From positions 127,844,818 through 127,908,817 of the forward strand of contig OZ020588.1 of assembly GCA_963971535.1 (NCBI GenBank): a DNA stretch of 64,000 nucleotides. The letters run 5' to 3'. Source of the stretch: Notolepis coatsorum (lineage: Eukaryota; Chordata; Actinopteri; Aulopiformes; Paralepididae). Below the pieces are notes generated by a model. The model ran no database searches, had not been told where the DNA came from, and worked only from the letters and a program-made list of their open reading frames with translations. The position numbers and the translations under genes are program-made. Each line of letters begins with the position of its first letter. Position 1 is the stretch's first letter. Below, piece by piece: positions 13,076 to 27,558 of the stretch.

Positions 13076-13108
13076 CAGGGGTCACCAACCTGTCGATCGC
13101 GATCATTT
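13076..13108 (+). mobile_element. hAT element 5' terminus
   Basis: CAGGGGTCACCAACCTGTCG is a typical hAT terminal inverted repeat. It breaks off after 33 bp at the EnSpm-like insertion. The sequence directly right of that insertion (27105 on, AAGTAGATCTAACTAACCGG) is the likely continuation, and a hAT transposase remnant lies at 27559. Confidence 0.65.
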
Positions 13109-13461
13109 CCCAGATAGCAAAAGGTGTTAATTCAATGTTGATTTATGGTCAACATGCTTGATTTTTGGTTAAGGTCGACGATTGATGGTGAATCACCCAT
13201 TAACCGCTGAAGCAATTGACTAATGTTGAAAACATATCATTGAATCAATATTGTTTTGTGGTTGCATTTTAACGATTGAAATGCCAATATCTAATAAATG
13301 TTGAATCAACGTATGCTGTTCAACGTATGCTGTTTGTCGTCATTACGTTGGACCGATCCGAATTCCCCCCCCCCCAATTTAAACAGATATGGTATGTCCC
13401 AGCATGCAGCTGAGCACTCTCTCAATGTGAACTGCATGGCAACAGAACAGCACGTCTGGAT

Positions 13462-14473
13462 CAGCGTTTCCGTTAGCCGGTAATTACCGGTATTTGACCG
13501 GCAAAATCTGGTGAAGTCCGACATATCTAATCTCTCCGGTCATAATGTCCGGTGAAAATAATTCCCTCTAAACACAATTAGATTATTTGAATTGTATTAA
13601 AATAGGCTAAAATTAAATAGCCTATGCGATGAACGAAACAATCATTACATTTGTCGTTGCTTCACCAAGCAGCCGGTCAATGACATCCTGTGTCAGCAAG
13701 CTGGCAGCTGATATATTTACGTGAAGCATGGCTTGGCAGGGTGCAGTACTCCAATTCAGCCATTGGCAATTCAGCTGTTGGGTGGGGGCGCTGCTGACAC
13801 CGCTGCTCTGCTCTGTCTGCTCTGCTCCATGCTTCACGTAAATATATCAGCTGCCAGCTCGCTGACACAGGATGTCATTGACCGGCTGCTTGGTGAAGCA
13901 ACGACAAATGTAATGATTGTTTCGTTCATCGCATAGGCTATTTAATTTTAGCCTATTTTAATACAATTCAAATAATCAAATTGTGCTTAGAGGGAATTAT
14001 TTTCACCGGACATTATGAGCAGCAGCAACAAGTCGTTGGGAGGTGGAGATATACATCACGGCGCAAACCCACGATAATGTTGCCGTCTCTCTGCCAAATT
14101 TCTCAGTTCTTCGCTTGATATAATTAATACAAATGTCCAATATAACGGAATTCGTTAGCTCATAAAAATGTGATTATAACAGACTGCTGTTTATTAAGGT
14201 GGGCAGACTGCCCACCGACACCTCAAGTCGGCAGCAGCACGCAGTCTCGAGGGACTTATTTTATTTGGAATATATTAATGACTGTATATACGCAAAAGTA
14301 GTCTAGTTTTAAGTTAAAATATTATAAATGCCTTGATGATGTCATTCTTTATATAGGCCTATCAATTGTTTTTAAGCTCAATAAACTCTGACCGGAATTT
14401 ATCCCATTTGTCCGGTAGATTGAAATCTACCGGACACTCAGACCTGCAAAAAAAAATTCTAACGGAAACCCTG
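13462..14473. mobile_element. hAT non-autonomous element with 8 bp target duplication
   Basis: GTCTGGAT occurs at 13454-13461 and 14474-14481. Between them the element starts CAGCGTTTCCGTTAG and ends CTAACGGAAACCCTG, which are inverted repeats with one mismatch. Both an 8 bp duplication and a CAG...CTG border are hAT hallmarks. The middle is a large palindrome and no transposase is present. Confidence 0.9.
13541..14017. repeat. Large palindrome, 191 bp arms and 95 bp loop
   Basis: 13541-13731 and 13827-14017 are near-perfect reverse complements (left arm starts CATAATGTCCGGTGAAAATA, right arm ends with its complement). The small ORFs at 13622 and 13721 are the same sequence read from the two arms. 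Confidence 0.9.
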
Positions 14474-14481
14474 GTCTGGAT

Positions 14482-15380
14482 CCCCCGGATTTGATTCTAC
14501 TGAGTGCTTTACAGTAAGTTTTGGCTATATTACTTTTATCTTAACTGTGTTCTGTGAAAAATAACGTTATTGTGAGTGTGACCAGTGGATCTTGACGGCG
14601 TTGTGCATGTGCTTATGCTGCAGTTTGGTAGGTAAATATATATATATACGTCAACTAAGATAAATATTCATGAATATTCGTTAGCGTGTGCTTAATATAA
14701 CTCTGGAGAGTGTGCAAGTGGAATCGTACGGTTGTTTAAGTTATTTCGATGTAAATATTCTAGCGCCAAACGAATAGAAATTGCGTGGTCCAATTGCGTG
14801 CGTTGGTACTGAATGACGTTGTGCGACTCAGCCAATCAAAAGCATGCTTATTGGGTGAACAGGAAGTAGTCAAGGAAGCACGCGCTAGCTGGCCTAGTAA
14901 ACACGTGGATCCGTAAATGCAACGTTGCCTACCAGACAACGGGACCGCGTGTTTCTTTTTGTATTGCTCCTGGCTGTTCAAACTAATTTTACAGTTCTGC
15001 TAGCTACATGCAGTATTTAGCGAGCTGGGTTAGCCGGTTAGTTGGCTTTGAATCCCGGCTGCGGCTAGGTAGCCAGCTAGCTAAATGCACCGCGACGGTG
15101 ATGTCACCAAACAAAATGGCGGCGCCCATGTTGATAAAGCGCTTCACATAACAAATCGTTTTTTCTTAGAAACTGCTTATTTTTATAACGTGATTTTTTC
15201 TGTGGCTTATCTAAATACTAATTTGATGCTATGACTATGTTTATATCGCTATATGCTTCATCTCCCCTTTAAGCTTAGGCACTCTTTCTAAGTTGGTTAA
15301 GGTTAGAGTTTGTCTTAGAGCATGGCGATAGAACGCCAGGTAGTTTGCAGGCTGTTTGGCGTGCCACTGGTCCTGCTAAT
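14482..15380 (+). other. EnSpm-like element leader, no gene recognised
   Basis: This is the region between the nested hAT element and the transposase exons. It includes AACAAAATGGCGGCGCCC near 15110, the kind of CpG-rich, YY1-like motif seen in TATA-less promoters, so transcription of the transposase may begin here. No conserved reading frame was found. Confidence 0.35.
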
Positions 15381-15600
15381 GTTGAATGAATGAATGAAAA
15401 CTTTATTTAACAGATTGCAGAAGGGGTACAATACAATATGGCTCAATACACACAATTGTTAAGGGGATGCAGACCAGAGAAAGACGTTTTTGTCTCGTTT
15501 ACATCAGGGTCCCCCATTTTCAATTCATAGTGACATTTATGACATACACATGATGACATTTATGGCATAGGGAGGGACATGCATGACATACAGATAGTAT
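15381..15600 (-). repeat. TTGA-tailed interspersed repeat, copy 2
   Basis: It opens with GAATGAATGAATG and then follows the order of copy 1: ACAGATTGCAGAAGGGGTAC, CAATTGTTAAGGGGATGCAG, ACATCAGGGTCCCCCATTTT and GACATA units. It lies inside the EnSpm-like element just before the duplicated exon region. Confidence 0.75.
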
Positions 15601-16158
15601 ATAGTTAGACGTTTGGTTATATGCACGGTATTTTCTAATGAACAATATAACAATAATATAATAATGAACTCTCTTGATATTGATCAAAATGTAGAATTAT
15701 GCAAGCGTTTCACCCTGCACATTGCAATGCAGAACATTAATCAGGACCCTCCCCCCTTTTTTCTTTCTTTTTCCAGAATCACGTACCAGTTTCAAGAAGC
15801 CGCATGTTGCAGCAATTGAAGCAAAGACTTAATTGTTCTAGCCAAGTAAATACCACAATTTATGTACCATTACATTGACTATATAGTTAGACGTTTGGTT
15901 ATATACATGGTATTTTCTAATGAACAATATAACAATAATATAATAATGGACTCTCTTGATATTGATCAAAATGTAGAATTATGCAAGCGTTTCACCCTGC
16001 ACATTGCAATGCAGCACATTAATGTCGACCCTCCCCCCTTTTTTCTTTCTTTTTCCAGAATCACGTACCAGTTTCAAGAAGCCGCACGTTGCAGCAATTG
16101 AAGCAAAGACCTGTTCTAGCCAAGTAAATAGCACAATGTATGTACCATTACATTGACT
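15601..16158 (+). repeat. 282 bp tandem duplication carrying a splice acceptor
   Basis: Two copies, 15601-15882 and 15883-16158, start ATAGTTAGACGTTTGGTTAT and differ at few sites. Each holds a pyrimidine tract (CCCCTTTTTTCTTTCTTTTT) ending in CCAG, followed by AATCACGTACCAGTTTCAAG, a good 3' splice site plus exon start. This is probably a duplicated intron-exon unit of the transposase gene 5' region. Confidence 0.75.
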
Positions 16159-16174
16159 ACAGCACCTCATCACT

Positions 16175-18280
16175 ATGTCATCTTATTCTCGGGCTAAAAG
16201 ACGTAGAGTCAACAAATTAGTGAGAGAGACAGAGCAGGCTATCCTCACTGATTATAAGTTAATTGTTGCTGCTAATTCAAGGACAAACCATCACTCTTTA
16301 GAGAACACAGATCCTGTCACAGCCTATACTGAGTGCCTGCTCGATTTACCAAAGACAGACTTGCCACTAGATTTAACAACTAGATCAGACTTGCCACTAG
16401 ATTTATCAACTTCAGACTTGCCACTAAACAGACCACTAACTATCAGTGATCAAAGTGAAAATATTGACTCACCAGGTGAGTCAAATGCACATTTTGAAAG
16501 TATAGCTGGGGATGACGAAATTGAACCTGAACATGTCTTTGACAGTGATGAGCATAATGAAGATTTCCTCATGACAAGTTTAAAATATTGGGCAACATCC
16601 TATTCAGTCTCTCTGGTTGCATTATCATCTTTGCTGTCCTTTTTGAAGATGTTTCACCCCACCCTTCCTAAAGATGGAAGAACATTGCTAGGAACACAAA
16701 AACATGTGCCTACCACTAAGATTGAAGGGGGAGAATACTATCATTTTGGTTTAGTCAAAGGGGTGCTTTCACGGTTGGCATGTTTGATTTTACCGGCAAC
16801 TCTGACAACTCTTAATTTACAGTTTAATATAGATGGTTTACCTTTATTCAAAAGTTCTAAACTTCAGTTTTGGCCCATACTTGGAAGTCTCAAATGTGAC
16901 TACACAAAGTCCCCATTTGTTGTTGGCATTTTTTGTGGTCTAAGCAAGCCAAAGAGTGTTTTTGAGTACCTAGAGCAGTTTGTCAAAGATCTTCAGAATG
17001 TACTGTCTAATGGCATTATTTATAATGACAAGCAATTTGATGTACAGATTTCTTCTTTCATTTGTGATGCCCCGGCTAGAGCTTATATTAAGCAGACCAA
17101 GGCATTTAATGGCTATTCTGGTTGTGACAAGTGTTTTCAGGAGGGTGTATGGAGAAATAAAATGACATATCCTGAAACAAAAGTCAGACTTAGGACAGAC
17201 TCCAGTTTCTCAGACATGGTTGATGAGGCCCATCACAATGGGACGAGCCCTTTAACAGGTTTAGTTAAGATGGTTTCTATGTTTCCAACTGATTACATGC
17301 ATCTCTGTTGTCTCGGAGTTACAAGGAAACTGCTTAATATATGGTTAAAGGGGAAGAATTTGGCAACAAGGGTCCCTTCCAAAACTGTACAAGCCATTTC
17401 AGGTAAACTGCTAAAGCTACGTCCCTACATGCCTTGTGAATTTAACCGTAAACCAAGGGAACTGTCAGAGTTAGATCGCTGGAAAGCTACTGAGTTGCGA
17501 TCCTTCATGTTGTATTGGGGTCCTGTTGTTTTGAAGGATTCCCTCCCCAGTGAGCTGTATGACAACTTCATGTTGTTTTCTGTTGGAATGTACTTGTTGC
17601 TGTCCCCTAGTATTTCTGAGGAAATGTTGGCCTTTGCGCACAAGTTGATGGTTTCTTTTGTTGAACACTTTGGGACAGTGTATGGAAGAGGTGAAATTGT
17701 GTACAATGTACACCAGCTTATTCATTTGGCTGAGGAATACAGGAAGTTTGGCACTCTAGATAATATCTCAGGATTCCCTTTTGAGAACTATCTTGGACAA
17801 ATTAAGCATCTTCTACGCAAGCCACATCAGCCTCTACAACAGGTAGTGAAAAGGTTGTCTGAAATTCCACATGTTGGATCCCCATGTCCCACAGATGATC
17901 CAATTTTGCGTAATATTCACACTGATGGGCCTGTCCCCCCACAGTTTACTTCTTCACAACAGTACAGGAAGGTCTCCACTCATCGGTTTACTTTGTCCAC
18001 AAAGAAAGGAGACAATTGTATTGAGGTTGGAGATGGATTTGCATTAGTAGAGAATATTCTTAAATCAGAGGAAGAGGTATATATAATTTACAGAAAGTAC
18101 AGACACAAACAGCCATACTACATGTATCCCTGCGAATCATCATACATTGGTACATACAAGGTCAGTGGCTTGCAAGAAGATATAGGGATAGGTAAACTTC
18201 GCTATATCAAGCGCAAATGTCTTCTCTCTCCAGACGGAGATGGTGCCATTGCAATACCACTACTTCATTTAACAGCATAA
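16175..18280 (+). CDS. EnSpm/CACTA-like transposase, 701 aa
   Basis: A single uninterrupted frame. It should cut and join the ends of the surrounding transposon in the nucleus. The N-terminus is basic (RAKRRRVNKLVR), then comes a repeated DLPLDL segment (residues 61-86) and an acidic stretch (about 110-130). The catalytic region resembles the transposase family of animal EnSpm elements: FNIDGLPLF (about 218-226), ICDAPARAYI (296-305), SGCDKC with a CxxC pair (315-320), DYMHLCCLGVTRKLL (373-387), RWKATELR (near 435) and FPFENYLGQIKHLLRKP (near 535). D220, D298 and a later acidic residue are candidate metal ligands; the CxxC after the second Asp fits the CACTA group. The start ATG follows a duplicated splice-acceptor region, so upstream exons may exist. 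The lack of stops suggests recent activity. Confidence 0.85.
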   Translation: MSSYSRAKRRRVNKLVRETEQAILTDYKLIVAANSRTNHHSLENTDPVTAYTECLLDLPKTDLPLDLTTRSDLPLDLSTSDLPLNRPLTISDQSENIDSPGESNAHFESIAGDDEIEPEHVFDSDEHNEDFLMTSLKYWATSYSVSLVALSSLLSFLKMFHPTLPKDGRTLLGTQKHVPTTKIEGGEYYHFGLVKGVLSRLACLILPATLTTLNLQFNIDGLPLFKSSKLQFWPILGSLKCDYTKSPFVVGIFCGLSKPKSVFEYLEQFVKDLQNVLSNGIIYNDKQFDVQISSFICDAPARAYIKQTKAFNGYSGCDKCFQEGVWRNKMTYPETKVRLRTDSSFSDMVDEAHHNGTSPLTGLVKMVSMFPTDYMHLCCLGVTRKLLNIWLKGKNLATRVPSKTVQAISGKLLKLRPYMPCEFNRKPRELSELDRWKATELRSFMLYWGPVVLKDSLPSELYDNFMLFSVGMYLLLSPSISEEMLAFAHKLMVSFVEHFGTVYGRGEIVYNVHQLIHLAEEYRKFGTLDNISGFPFENYLGQIKHLLRKPHQPLQQVVKRLSEIPHVGSPCPTDDPILRNIHTDGPVPPQFTSSQQYRKVSTHRFTLSTKKGDNCIEVGDGFALVENILKSEEEVYIIYRKYRHKQPYYMYPCESSYIGTYKVSGLQEDIGIGKLRYIKRKCLLSPDGDGAIAIPLLHLTA

Positions 18281-18438
18281 CCATACTGCCCTACAAAGCT
18301 AAAGTGCAGTAACTATATTGACACACTGACTCTAACGTCGGATTTCGGGGCATAACTTACCTCATTAATAAATACACAATTAGTACAATATTACATGTAC
18401 ACAGATAACATGTTTGGCTGGCCAATTGAAACGCTTAA

Positions 18439-19812
18439 AGGAAAACTCCAACATTTTGTGAAATTAGCTTATTTAACATCTTCCCTGGAGTTGGACAAGA
18501 AGATGCATACCTTTTTCGTCTCTCTGCATGCTTTGGGCTTAGGGAACGCCTGGACCGTTAGCCTAGCTTAACTTCATCACTGGAAGTGGGGCAGACATCT
18601 AGCCTAGTTCACTACAGTCAGGAAATATACTCCAAATACAACTCCCAAACGTTCCTGTAAACATGTTGTGACCTGTGTGTTTACCCCGTCTCCCAGTCAC
18701 ACAAGTCACACGAGTCTCCCAGTCACATGAGTCTCGTGTGACTTGGAGACTTGTGTGACTTGTGTGACTTGGACTTGTGTGACTTGGAGACTTGTGTGAC
18801 TTGTGTGACTTGGAGACTTGTGTGACTTGTGTGACTTGTGTGACTTGGACTTGTGTGACTTGTGTGACTTGTGTGACTTGGAGACTTGTGTGACTTGTGT
18901 GACTTGGAGACTTGTGTGACTTGTGTGACTTGGAGACTTGTGTGACTTGGAGACTTGTGTGACTTGTGTGACTTGGAGACTTGTGTGACTTGTGTGACTT
19001 GTGTGACTTGGACTTGTGTGACTTGTGTGACTTGTGTGACTTGTGTGACTTGGAGACTTGTGTGATTCGTGTGACTTGGAGACTTGGACTTGTGTGACTT
19101 GTGTGACTTGGAGACTTGTGTGACTTGGAGACTTGTGTGACTCATGTGACTTGGAGACATGTGTGACTGGGAGACTTGTGTGACTTGGAGACTTGTGTGA
19201 CTCGTGTGACTCGTGTGACTTGGACTTGTGTGACTTGTGTGACTTGGAGACTTGTGTGACTCGTGTGACTTGGATACTTGGACGTGTGTGACTTGTGTGA
19301 CTTGGAGACTTGTGTGACTTGGAGACTTGTGTGACTCATGTGACTTGGAGACTTGTGTGACTGGGAGACTTGTGTGACTTGGAGACTTGTGTGACTCGTG
19401 TGACTTGGAGACTTGGGCTTGTGTGACTTGGAGACTTGTGTGACTCGTGTGACTTGGAGACTTGGGCTTGTGTGACTTGTGTGACTTGTGTGACTGGGAG
19501 ACTTGTGTGACTTGTGTGACTGGGAGACTTGTGTGACTTGTGTGACTGGGAGACGTGGTAAATACACAGGTCACAACATGTTTACGGGAACGTTTGGGAG
19601 TTGTATTTTGATTGTATTTGGAGTATATTTCCTGACTGTAGTGAACTAGGTTAGATGTCTGCCCCACTTCCAGTGATGAAGTTAAGCTAGGCTAACTGTC
19701 CAGGCGTTCCCTAAGCCCAATGCATGCAGAGAGACGAAAAAGGTATGTATCTTCTTATAACTCCAGGGAAGATGTCAAATAAGCTAATTTCACAAAATGT
19801 TGGAGTTTTCCT
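18439..19812. mobile_element. TTAA-flanked MITE (Kolobok/piggyBac type) with expanded minisatellite
   Basis: TTAA at 18435-18438 and 19813-19816 bound inverted repeats of about 270 bp that start AGGAAAACTCCAACATTTTG. The arms are 18439-18720 and 19545-19812. The core is a tandem repeat. No protein is encoded. It sits between the transposase and the DUF4806 gene of the EnSpm-like element. Confidence 0.85.
18722..19555 (+). repeat. Minisatellite of GTGTGACTTG and GAGACTTGTGTGACTTG units
   Basis: About 830 bp of alternating ten-base GTGTGACTTG units and longer units with a GAGACTTG insert. At its left edge (18695-18725) the unit orientation flips, because CCCAGTCACACAAGTCACAC is the reverse complement of the array. 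The unit therefore began as part of the palindrome and expanded on one side. The 314-residue and 141-residue ORFs across it (VTQVSQSHKSH repeats) are products of the repeat. Confidence 0.95.
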
Positions 19813-19816
19813 TTAA

Positions 19817-20562
19817 ATGCTTCAAAAATGCAATATGTGCGGACTAATTAGGAGGCGGCTGTTACAAAGGGTCAGATTAAACCGAATATATATATTTATT
19901 ACTTGAGATATATTGTATAGTATTTGTATATCGTCTGATATCCCTTGTATATTCTTTGTACATATACACGGAATATCCCTTTACCTAGTACAGGCCAGAC
20001 CATAATATTCGTTCTCCTATTGGACAGCGACCCCCCTAGGCGCCACGGCCATACCCCCAATGTCTAGTTCAAAGTCACCGCTAAGACGTATAAATACGTT
20101 GCAGGTGGATACAGCAGTTAGTTACCCCAATAAGTTGAAGCCTTCACCACGATACAACGTGCTGTGAAGTGGGCCCGTTTTGCCCCAAAATAGAGCCTTG
20201 AGACCGCGTGCAAATTGATAGCTGAAGTGTCAGAGTTTAACGCTGTATCGTTGAGTTCGACCTATTCTATTATTAAGTATTAGTCTATTATGTATAGTGT
20301 ATCGTGCGGCTACCGTTCTACAGTGACCAGCATTACCAACGTTTCATCGTACCGAGCTAGTGTGCTTATCCAGGCTGGGCGGCCTAACCTTGTGCCGCCA
20401 TCCGAGGAGCCCTAGACGAGAACCGTGTGGATATGTACACTGGATAACCTACACCGACGATTATATTGCTTTGGTCCTGTGGCTGGTTTAGGACGGTATG
20501 GGAATGGCTTGTAAGGAGAGATCATTATTAGTACCGTAAATTCTCATTTCAGCCCTTTGAAG
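19817..20562 (+). promoter_or_regulatory. Probable promoter and 5' leader of the DUF4806 gene
   Basis: TATAAATA lies at 20089-20096. A splice acceptor, TTCTCATTTCAG, ends at 20552, 10 bases before the first ATG of the coding sequence, so a non-coding first exon between about 20120 and 20500 is likely. TGTTACAAAGGG at 19869 resembles an LTR start, but no matching LTR end or target duplication was found. Confidence 0.45.
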
Positions 20563-24514
<3,952 letters not shown>

Positions 24515-24529
<15 letters not shown>

Positions 24530-24842
24530 GTCAAGCGAACCAGAGTCAAACTTAGGGTACCCCAGCACAGCACACACTGTTTCCCTGGTTCATACAGTAC
24601 AAGGAATTACCCTCATGGACACTGTTCTTCCATGGACGGCATCTACTTGAATGACTTGCTGCTTCAGCCTGTTCTTGGAACCGAAGTGACCCAAACTTAA
24701 TTGTCAAGCGAACCAGAGTCAAACTTGGGGTACCCCAGCACACTGTTTCCCTGGTTCATACAGTACAAGGAATTACCCTCATGGACACTGTTCTTCCATG
24801 GACGGCATCTACTTGAATGACTTGCTGCTTCAGCCTGTTCTT
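24515..24842 (+). repeat. Tandem duplication over the DUF4806 stop codon and 3' UTR
   Basis: 24515-24677 and 24678-24842 share TCAAGCGAACCAGAGTCAAA, CCCTGGTTCATACAGTACAA and CTTGAATGACTTGCTGCTTC in the same order. The first copy contains the final codons and the TAA; the second is altered there (GAACCGAAGTGACCC). Confidence 0.85.
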
Positions 24843-24864
24843 GCAGTGTTTATTTTTTTTATTT

Positions 24865-25450
24865 TTTATTTTAACCTTTATTTACCCAGGGTAGGTTCGC
24901 TGAGCACGGATGCTCTTTTTCAGCTACGCCCTGCTTCACATTCACAGAGTTACATTCACACCTGGGAGCTGCCCAGGCCTAACAAAATTAATAGTTGGTT
25001 TCAGGTTGCCGACCGACCATGCCGATTTAGGTGCGACCCAATATATTTTATGAGTTTTTAGAAAAAATTATAAAAAAAAAAAAAAGAAAAAAAAAAAAAA
25101 ATTTAATAAAGTTTCATAGAAATCTTAGTCAAACATTTAGTATTATGGATATTAAACATGCTGGCAGAGTACATGCATCCATGTTGTTGTGAACATTTTA
25201 ATTAAATAATGAAATTCCCTATCCATAGTCGCCGTGGGAAAGAATAAAATTAAAAAATAAAATAAAATAAATTCCCTACCTACCCATGGCCAAACTGACA
25301 ACCAACCTGAAACCAACTATTAATTTTGTTAGGCCCCAGTACAACCACAGTCTGACACTGTTGGCCACTGAGCAACTCCACTGGAGCAGTTGGGGGTTTA
25401 GTGCCTTGCTCAAGGGCACTTCAGCGGTTGGTGTTAAGGGTATGGGAGAG
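24865..25450 (+). repeat. Common fish interspersed repeat, split by a MITE
   Basis: The left part (TTTTAACCTTTATTTACCCAGG, ending AGCTGCCCAG at 24976) and the right part (25335 on: CCCAGTACAACCACAGTCTG, then GGTTTAGTGCCTTGCTCAAG) read as one sequence once 24977-25334 is removed. The motif of TTAACCTTTATTT and GCCTTGCTCAAGGGCACTTC is very common in fish genomes. Confidence 0.65.
24977..25334. mobile_element. 358 bp MITE with 33 bp perfect inverted repeats and 5 bp duplication
   Basis: CCCAG at 24972-24976 and 25335-25339 flank it. The ends GCCTAACAAAATTAATAGTT... and their reverse complement match over 33 bp. The interior is A-rich and non-coding. The superfamily is not clear from a 5 bp duplication. 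Confidence 0.85.
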
Positions 25451-25477
25451 AGTTATATGGGAGAGAGTTATAGAAAC

Positions 25478-25600
25478 ATTAGGGGTGTAACGGTACACAA
25501 AATCCACGGTTCGGTACGTACCTCGGTTTTGAAGACACGGTTCGGTATTATTTTCGGTACAGTGGGGGGATTTAAAGGGAATCCAAAAAAAATTGCTTTT
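25478..25600 (+). repeat. hAT-like terminal fragment
   Basis: TTAGGGGTGTAACGGTACAC, then CGGTTCGGTACGTACCTCGG, is the start of a widespread fish hAT-like repeat. No matching right end was seen, so it is a fragment. Confidence 0.5.
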
Positions 25601-25816
25601 CATTTATCTATTTATTTAACTGTATTAAACAATATAAAACGAATTGGCCATAATTGACTTAGCAAACTAATGCTTACTGCTGTAACCTACTAATAACACT
25701 TAAGTAAATCTGAAGATTATTATATAGCAGATGCCTTGGAGGATAAGTCGTGGACAACTGTAGATCATCTAAGCTCCACTGTGTTTAAATTCAAATCCTC
25801 TGCCATTGTTATTTAA

Positions 25817-26188
25817 CCCTTGTGTCTGAAAACTAAAGTATTATACTCTTATTAGGGGACTAAATTGAAAAACTCCATAAAAAGATTATGTTGAAATAAT
25901 TTCCCACTTTCTTTTCCATAAATATTTTATTCAACTTCAGCCCTGATCATAACCATTTTTTATATTATTTTTGTAATGAAATACTCCCACTTTTCTGAAA
26001 AGAGTTGTTAAATATGACAAAAAAAATAATATGTGGTGGTTATGATCGGGCTGAAGTGGAATAAACAATTTATGAAGAGTAAAAAAAAAATACAAGATAA
26101 TTAAAAGATTATGCCACATATTATGTTGGCTACAAACATAATCACTGCAAAGTTATCAAACAAATACGAATCTGATCAGACACAAGGG
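25817..26188. mobile_element. piggyBac-like MITE, 372 bp
   Basis: TTAA at 25813-25816 and 26189-26192 border CCCTTGTGTCTGA and TCAGACACAAGGG, perfect 13 bp inverted repeats. A second inverted pair lies inside (CAGCCCTGATCATAACC near 25939, GGTTATGATCGGGCTG near 26038). No ORF is present. Confidence 0.9.
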
Positions 26189-26754
26189 TTAAGTTGTTGT
26201 TCCCTTTCTAATTTCCTCAAAAACATCTAGTCTAGTTAATGTGATCAATATTATTTGACAATTGATGCTTTTTGTTGGACATTTCAGTCAGTGAGCTCAT
26301 ACTTTGAGCTCATAAATTTATAGTTAAAATGATTGAGACAACGCAATCTTGTCTTCGTTGTGCATGAATGCGTGTGCTCACCACACACAATATGTGTGTC
26401 ACTATTCTGGCAGTGGCTATATATGTATTGTTAATGAAAGCCTGTTATAAGGTCTGTTATTTTTTTTTGTGTAAAAGGTATGGTCACTGGAAGTATGATA
26501 CCCTAGAAAAAAATAAATTTTCATATTAAAGCCATGTTGTCATTTTTGTTCACACATTTTTGGAAATATGGTCATATAAGAATTTTATTATTATTTATTT
26601 AACAATAGTGTGTTTAACAGCAGGAAAAAAACATGTAATGTTATGATGTATACATATCAGCAGCAATATTTTAATGTAAAATGTACATTAATCAGTATTG
26701 ATTCCTTAACTTTACAAGTTACAAGTAGATGTACAAGTTACAAATGTACAAGTA

Positions 26755-26995
26755 GAGTACCATTTAGATTATGGTTGAATAAACATTGATGTCTAACATT
26801 GATTCAATATAAAATCAACTAAAATGTGCATGTAGATTACCATTTAGATTATGGTTGAATAAACATTGATGTCTAACATTGATTCAATATAAAATCAACT
26901 AAAATGTGCATGTAGATTACCATTTAGATGATGGTTGAATCAACATTGATATAGTATCAGTTATGGTTGACACCTAACGTTGATTCAACGTGTAA
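26755..26995 (+). repeat. EnSpm-like subterminal repeats, three 80 bp units
   Basis: CATTTAGATTATGGTTGAAT starts at 26761, 26841 and (with one change) 26921, a regular 80 bp period. Each unit holds AACATTGATTCAATATAAAATC-like sequence. The same TTGAATCAACG words occur near the left end (about 13240-13330). In CACTA elements such repeats bind the accessory protein. Confidence 0.75.
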
Positions 26996-27558
26996 GTCAT
27001 AGACAACGATCTGTATAATTTCAATGTCAGGCTTCAACATAGATTCAATATTTCTGCCGAACCCTATTTCAACGTTGATTCACTCATTTTTTGCTATCTG
27101 GGTTGGGACATTCCAAGTAGATCTAACTAACCGGCGGGCCGTCACGCACTCACGGGCACGTCGCGGCACTTTGTGCTCGTCTGCAGGCTCCAGGCTGCAT
27201 TTTTCACAGATCATCCAATACAACGTTCGAACGTTGAATTTGCCGCCTTTCGATCACCACCGCACTCAACCTATTGCATGCTTCGGGTCTCGAGTTACAA
27301 GACAAAATATCCGGCGACCGTCATTTGACAGGCCGCTCCGTCAAGTGACCACATCCGACTGTATACGGTCCCAAACTGACCAATCACCGCTGATGGCGAA
27401 AATGACTGACCACCGCTGTAGCCAAGGAGCGTCGCTGACAGCTGACGGTATGTCGCTACTTTGGAGAGCGGTGCAGTAGTCATGGCTGAGCCACATAAAA
27501 AAAGGGCAAAAAACTACAAATTGAGGAGGTGTTCAGTTTACCAGCTGGAGTTGACATG

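Follow-up and report, generated by a model that had tools for sequence, protein, structure and literature searches.

The window analysed here is a stretch of 64,000 nucleotides of the ray-finned fish Notolepis coatsorum (assembly GCA_963971535.1, contig OZ020588.1, positions 127,844,818 to 127,908,817, forward strand). It contains a transposable element of about 14 kb with two genes on the same strand. The upstream gene encodes a transposase of 701 amino acids (aa), and the downstream gene encodes a 460-aa protein with a DUF4806 domain. An earlier reading made from the letters alone (hereafter the sequence-only reading) had described this element as an EnSpm/CACTA-like transposon that is possibly still autonomous. 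The coordinates of the features are given in the table.

The two ends of the element are a 14-bp terminal inverted repeat (TIR), CCCAGATAGCAAAA, and TT lies outside each of them, as the sequence-only reading had noted. Even when two mismatches were allowed, CCCAGATAGCAAAA matched the window only at these two ends. In the whole genome (3.42 Gb) it was found exactly 1112 times in the forward and 1121 times in the reverse orientation, versus 2 and 2 for a control read backwards. The first 100 places among the matches listed, all of them on sequence C1, comprised 39 facing pairs of exact ends picked by eye, with lengths of 4.4-36 kb (median, 13.0 kb), and 22 single ends. The target-site duplication (TSD) was checked in 33 elements, which were the window copy, 12 elements fetched whole and, from the 27 remaining pairs, 20 that were represented by their ends. 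An exact 2-bp TSD was observed in 32 of the 33, and the flanks of mismatched pairs agreed in 13%. A 3-bp match of the flanks was observed in none of the 33 elements and a 6-bp match in one.

The window copy was inserted within a repeat. A query made of the joined flanks gave 127 candidates, of which 40 were scored, and 15 of the scored matches span the joint by their coordinates. All eight joint-crossing matches that were fetched read straight from one flank into the other, lacking both the insert and a second TT; the joint reads TTTGGGACATT in seven of these sites and TTTGAGACTTT in the other. Since the TSD was found in 32 of 33 elements and the interrupted repeat has empty sites, the ends are settled. 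The element at 13109-27102 is a real and precisely bounded DNA transposon. The sequence-only reading had looked to a list of empty sites to settle the ends, with duplications of 2-3 bp; the eight sites give a duplication of 2 bp.

Table. Features of the element in the window (positions are those of the window)
Feature	Position	Strand	Basis or remark
Whole element	13109-27102	.	14-bp TIRs plus TT flanks
Left TSD copy, TT	13107..13108	.	Flank comparison; empty sites
Left 14-bp TIR, CCCAGATAGCAAAA	13109..13122	+	Sequence match; genome-wide exact copies
Left subterminal region	13123..13344	.	Motif sites at 13132, 13240, 13301
Later insertion, 192-bp inverted repeats, 9-bp flank repeat GTCTGGATC	13463..14473	.	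About 1 kb; absent from E05; bounds approximate
Two tandem 282-bp units before the transposase	15598..16159	+	Copy number differs between elements; splice-acceptor-like sequence in each unit (by eye)
Transposase open reading frame (ORF), family A, 701 aa	16175..18280	+	ORF without stop; genome copies 99-100% identical
Insertion between the genes, arms of about 320 bp, tandem core of GTGTGACTT	18426..19825	.	Shared with E05
Second gene, 12 exons, 460 aa	20563..24529	+	Frame and splice sites; sites kept in other copies
Second gene, exons 1-6	20563-20767, 20909-21020, 21220-21314, 21662-21745, 21839-21904, 22141-22185	+	
Second gene, exons 7-12	22391-22483, 22929-22994, 23083-23163, 23252-23493, 23819-23996, 24414-24529	+	
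Exons 10-12, residues 283-460, DUF4806 (BEN type)	23252..24529	+	Pfam; R446C at 24482
Right subterminal array of 80-bp units	26742..26981	.	
Right-end motif sites	26799, 26879, 26935, 26940, 26980, 27069		
Right 14-bp TIR	27089..27102	-	CCCAGATAGCAAAA inverted
Right TSD copy, TT	27103..27104	.	Flank comparison; empty sites

The transposase frame is open throughout its 701 codons, which agrees with the sequence-only reading. A genome search with this protein gave 1218 candidates, 64 of which were scored. All 64 showed identities of 99% or higher, and 62 of them were free of stops. An exact 26-base core of the gene was found 185 + 175 times in the genome (control, 0 + 0). The window copy and five fetched copies encoding the identical protein differ from one another at 1-7 of 2103 bases; these five were picked by top score and represent the young end of the range. 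The family to which they belong, hereafter family A, is young and has recently multiplied, and working copies may exist in it. By analogy with the CACTA transposases, D220, D298 and E537 are putative catalytic residues. The sequence search of the PDB gave no matches either for the transposase or for the A1 profile, and no relatives were found in the viral and prokaryotic contigs searched. The AlphaFold2 model of the lone transposase sequence, calculated without an alignment, had a pLDDT of 35 and was not used.

The 12-exon structure of the second gene, also proposed in the sequence-only reading, was confirmed. All of its phases are in register, 10 of the 11 introns are of the GT-AG type and one is GC-AG, and the splice sites are preserved in the other copies wherever they are readable. 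No cDNA-like copies supporting the exon model were found. An open frame of 579 aa on C23 had been considered as such a spliced copy; on reading, it turned out to be an intron-bearing deleted copy. The C-terminal 178 aa, when used alone, matched DUF4806 (PF16064) at residues 336-424 with an E-value of 3.7e-9 (37.2 bits versus the cut-off of 25), so that the domain name given earlier was right. The match was not seen with the whole 460-aa protein as the query. The six-frame Pfam search of the whole genome for DUF4806 also gave nothing, although the domain is present there, split by introns. The PDB search with the DUF4806 part gave three weak matches with E-values of 0.18 or worse, which were not accepted as relatives. 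In the available parts of the literature, DUF4806 is described as a subtype of the BEN DNA-binding domain (PMC11075544), and LIN-14 is treated as a BEN protein (PMC10080584). The product of the second gene is likely, from its sequence, to be a protein of the DNA-binding type.

The two genes were found together in many other copies. The genome search with the second gene gave 4339 candidates, 92 of which were scored, which makes the first of the following counts a lower bound. At least 21 of the 64 scored transposases are followed on the same strand, at a distance of up to 30 kb, by an exon of the second gene. In the reverse test, C1, C4 and C6 contributed 27 of the 93 second-gene rows listed, and in 23 of these 27 the exact transposase core was located 2.3-6.6 kb upstream on the same strand. 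No other arrangement was observed in either direction. On C1 up to 174.6 Mb, where pairs of exact ends span 0.3% of the sequence, all 13 A cores are associated with exact ends: nine are enclosed by a pair, and four have a single end no more than 14 kb away. Genes paired outside these ends, to which the sequence-only reading had drawn attention, were not met in this region, where the ends can be checked. All ten further A-type copies that were examined contain the segment corresponding to 13109-13344 of the window.

The sequence-only reading had also raised the possibility of copies that lack a gene as a rule. By exact patterns, which miss mutated cores, the 39 pairs on C1 consist of nine with the A core, seven with the core of a second family (family B), seven with a fusion junction described below and 16 with none of these. 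Hence 16 pairs hold an exact A or B core and the majority do not, as is commonly the case in transposon families. In view of these counts, the notion that every copy carries both genes was given up. The earlier statement that a large element with two genes is unusual did not survive either, since the 39 exact-ended pairs already span 4.4-36 kb.

Family B is represented by two of the 12 fetched elements, E03 and E10, and has the same 14-bp ends as family A. Its exact core was found 64 + 56 times in the genome (control, 0 + 0). The transposases of A and B are 63% identical, and the second genes are 43-66% identical in four stretches that keep the same order and strand. The boundaries of exons 10-12 are, by eye, common to the two families. 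The ratio of non-synonymous to synonymous divergence (dN/dS) between A and B was 0.19 for the transposase with a synonymous divergence (dS) of 1.42, and it was 0.13 without the variable N-terminus. For the second gene, compared exon by exon over 232 cleanly aligned codons, dN/dS was 0.25 and dS was 1.37. Purifying selection has maintained both genes between the families, and their divergence seems to have run in parallel.

The subterminal repeats reported earlier on both sides of the element contain a palindromic motif, TTGAWTCAA / TCAAYRTTGA. In the window, nine sites of this motif lie within 400 bp of the ends and none in the 13.2 kb between them, while a Markov model predicts 0.06 sites for the ends. 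In E10 of family B, seven sites were found near the ends and none inside; only about 70 bp of the left end of E10 align with family A. The TTGA half-sites alternate in orientation, which would fit a dimeric reader of the motif.

A group of animal elements provides the closest comparison. According to the available part of the report of DeMarco et al. 2006 (PMC1636069), the CACTA-related TRC elements of animals have ends that start with CCC and a 2-bp duplication of the target, and transposases related over almost the full length exist in several animals, including Danio. One of them, SmTRC1, is about 4.5 kb long with a 54-bp inverted repeat; alternative splicing was shown and a Transposase_21 match was reported for it, and the portions of its proteins outside the transposase domain are not detectably conserved (PMC1636069). 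SmTRC1, as far as it is described there, resembles the window element in the CCC ends, the 2-bp duplication, the single large transposase ORF and the downstream coding region. The window element, in contrast, has 14-bp ends, a length of 14 kb, a 12-exon DUF4806 gene and no Transposase_21 match. The two transposases were compared by description. By this analogy, the element looks and probably works like TRC; formal membership is not claimed because there was no Transposase_21 match, and we speak of likeness only.

The EnSpm/CACTA-like label of the sequence-only reading stands for a transposon family with these ends and this gene pair, but the CCC ends and the 2-bp TSD make the element TRC-like and not a plant En/Spm. 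The CACTA core of the plant elements is absent from the ends of the window element, and their 3-bp duplication was seen in 0 of 33 elements. In maize En/Spm, TnpA and TnpD divide the labour between end binding and cutting. As far as the available descriptions go, En/Spm shares with the window element a transposase, a second gene of many exons, clustered subterminal motifs and deletion derivatives, and its transposase frame also precedes the second gene (partly PMC1636069). It differs in having CACTA ends and a 3-bp TSD, and the likeness rests on the plan, not on homology to TnpA or TnpD.

We consider it probable that the element represents a young, TRC-like cut-and-paste family whose DUF4806 protein pairs the ends at the motif. 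The BEN-type protein, probably dimeric, would bind TTGAWTCAA / TCAAYRTTGA in the subterminal regions and, from these motif arrays, bring the two ends together for the transposase to cut at the CCC ends. The division of labour between the two proteins would then be that of TnpA and TnpD. Alternative splicing of transcripts from one upstream promoter could yield the two messages. The stop of the family B transposase is just 74 bp from the splice acceptor before the ATG of the second gene; in family A, insertions have come between the two genes. In A as in B, an acceptor is found no more than 10 bases from this ATG. A promoter would hardly fit into the gap of 74 bp, so splicing from an exon farther upstream, with the transposase frame passed over, is the probable origin of the second message. 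This proposal matches what is described for En/Spm and SmTRC1 in the available part of PMC1636069. Many of the copies are deletion derivatives, presumably mobilised in trans.

Of course, several facts weigh against this reading. Transposase_21 (PF02992) matched neither the transposase of A, that of B, nor four fragments of A at E-values up to 10. A family search of the genome for this domain found a single protein (L084, G000:C6:153134200-153136700) with an E-value of 3.2e-18, and a profile comparison of the window transposase with it, in which the query profile consisted of two sequences, gave a probability of 0.8% and an E-value of 0.07. The match of the transposase to DUF4218 stayed below the cut-off (E-values of 0.24 for A, 0.014 for B and 0.044 for a fragment of A), and its other Pfam matches were at chance level only. 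Either of the two proteins could read the motif. In 4 of the 27 second-gene rows listed, no exact transposase core was found nearby. Within family A, the second gene of the window differs from that of E05 by one synonymous and six non-synonymous changes and from that of E12 by two and six; though the numbers are small, there is no sign of constraint on this gene within the family, and some copies are decaying. The dS values between A and B are near saturation, and the transposase frames of both fetched B copies, E03 and E10, are broken. Finally, given their shared ancestry, the features common to A and B represent the history of one lineage and not independent inventions.

The missing Transposase_21 match and the non-significant profile comparison, together with the lack of CACTA termini and of a 3-bp duplication, would also be explained if the element came from another superfamily with CCC ends and 2-bp duplications, its likeness to CACTA being superficial. 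We regard this as rather improbable. The DUF4218 match, weak as it is, sits at the same place in A and B, and in plant CACTA transposases DUF4218 adjoins the catalytic domain. Moreover, CCC ends and 2-bp duplications are themselves features of the animal TRC elements, whose transposases have relatives over nearly their whole length in several animals, Danio among them, according to the available part of PMC1636069. A passive load, either cargo or a gene captured from the host, is a still less probable explanation of the second gene. The elements are large, as the 39 pairs of 4.4-36 kb show, and the retrotransposon-like ORFs of E07, E09 and E11 indicate that foreign DNA is tolerated. However, the same gene, in the same order and strand and with the same boundaries of exons 10-12 (by eye), accompanies a transposase that is only 63% identical. 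Its dN/dS of about 0.25 and the co-location in 23 of 27 and at least 21 of 64 cases, never in another orientation, also argue against a passive passenger.

A different role of the second gene deserves more attention, and it is connected with the deletion derivatives. One shared deletion, which extends from 16306 to 23108 of the window and contains a short filler, was found in 4 of the 12 fetched elements. As a result, 44 residues of the transposase continue, without a change of frame, into exon 9 of the second gene. A frame of 256 aa with the DUF4806 part was kept in three of the four fusion copies, and the fourth was frame-shifted. The exact junction was found 73 + 55 times in the genome (128 in total; control, 0 + 0). 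The KP-type repressors of the P element arise by internal deletion. Like them, the fusion derives from a deletion, has multiplied and retains an open frame that includes a likely DNA-binding part, but the likeness rests on structure and not on repression; a function of the fusion protein as a regulator is a speculation.

The second gene itself might be such a regulator, a repressor or an antagonist of silencing that acts on the promoter or the chromatin by binding at the subterminal sites. BEN domains are predicted to recruit chromatin factors (PMC11075544, available part), and the fusion with its 128 junctions amplifies just the later part of this gene behind the 44 transposase residues, three of four copies having the 256-aa frame. 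Yet the motif sites are located at both ends and not just at the end of one promoter. Both families have retained the gene, its dS is similar to that of the transposase, and a role in the machinery would account for this at least as well. In-frame joining has a chance of one in three. We therefore think a purely regulatory role unlikely, though less so than the two other alternatives, and prefer the DUF4806 protein as the partner that pairs the ends.

The two-gene plan is not unusual in this genome. The novelty lies in the kind of partner and in the motif that the families share: a partner with a recognisable domain of the DNA-binding type is present in two diverged families with the same end motif. 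The role of the second gene in animal CACTA-like transposons thereby becomes testable by a simple binding and mini-element assay, and a possible source is provided for the unexplained DUF4806 genes of animals. Four such genes in a region of zebrafish chromosome 4 and dozens in Hydra are described in the available parts of PMC11075544 and PMC7642931; they have the same Pfam domain as the window gene, and those parts describe no link to a transposase. No literature linking DUF4806 to a transposase was found by a search that left most subscription journals and Repbase outside, and the fish EnSpm entries there may already show a second protein. The sources seen, in their available parts, likewise gave no link between the BEN domain, transposases and CACTA. 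We tentatively suggest, as an idea with the odds against it, that DUF4806 proteins were originally the end-binding partners of animal CACTA-like transposases, that the many orphan DUF4806 genes in fish and Hydra descend from such helpers, either as remnants or through domestication, and that the fusion of transposase residues 1-44 with DUF4806 (at least 128 copies) is a dominant regulator that spread itself.

The autonomy of the window copy itself was judged separately from that of the family. Residue 446 of its second gene is C, and it is R in all nine other copies read. R is also found in both family B copies, and the change therefore hits a conserved place. Y167 likewise sets the window apart from all other copies read at this residue, with S in three copies. 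Near the end of exon 12, the window lacks 10 bp that are present in eight of nine other copies, and this loss leads to an early stop that replaces the last residues of the family. Because of R446C and the 10-bp deletion, the autonomy of the window copy is doubtful; judging from the sequence, its helper protein may not be fully functional any more. The earlier suggestion of autonomy is thus plausible for the family, in which every one of the 64 scored transposases shows 99% identity or more and all but two are free of stops, but doubtful for this copy.

At least six later insertions had been counted in the element. Two of them were seen, at 13463-14473 and 18426-19825, and the remainder are not proven. 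From the length of the duplication, we assume the insertion at 13463-14473 to be Mutator-like. The core of the other consists of about 96 units of the 9-base repeat GTGTGACTT. The segment at 19841-20460 is 78-83% identical to two spaced copies in E11 and may be a solo long terminal repeat.

The larger copies E07, E09 and E11 (L018-L019, L022-L023 and L026-L027) contain ORFs of 570, 845 and 1638 aa, respectively, which look by eye like nested retrotransposons. Such insertions may account for much of the large size of these three elements. Captured host genes were considered for the larger copies and rejected, since the long foreign ORFs of the twelve fetched elements look like retrotransposons (by eye); one short piece from the larger copies, run against Pfam, gave no match. 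Outside the element, the minus strand of the window at 1-2850 resembles, by eye, part of the polyprotein of a BEL/Pao-type retrotransposon.

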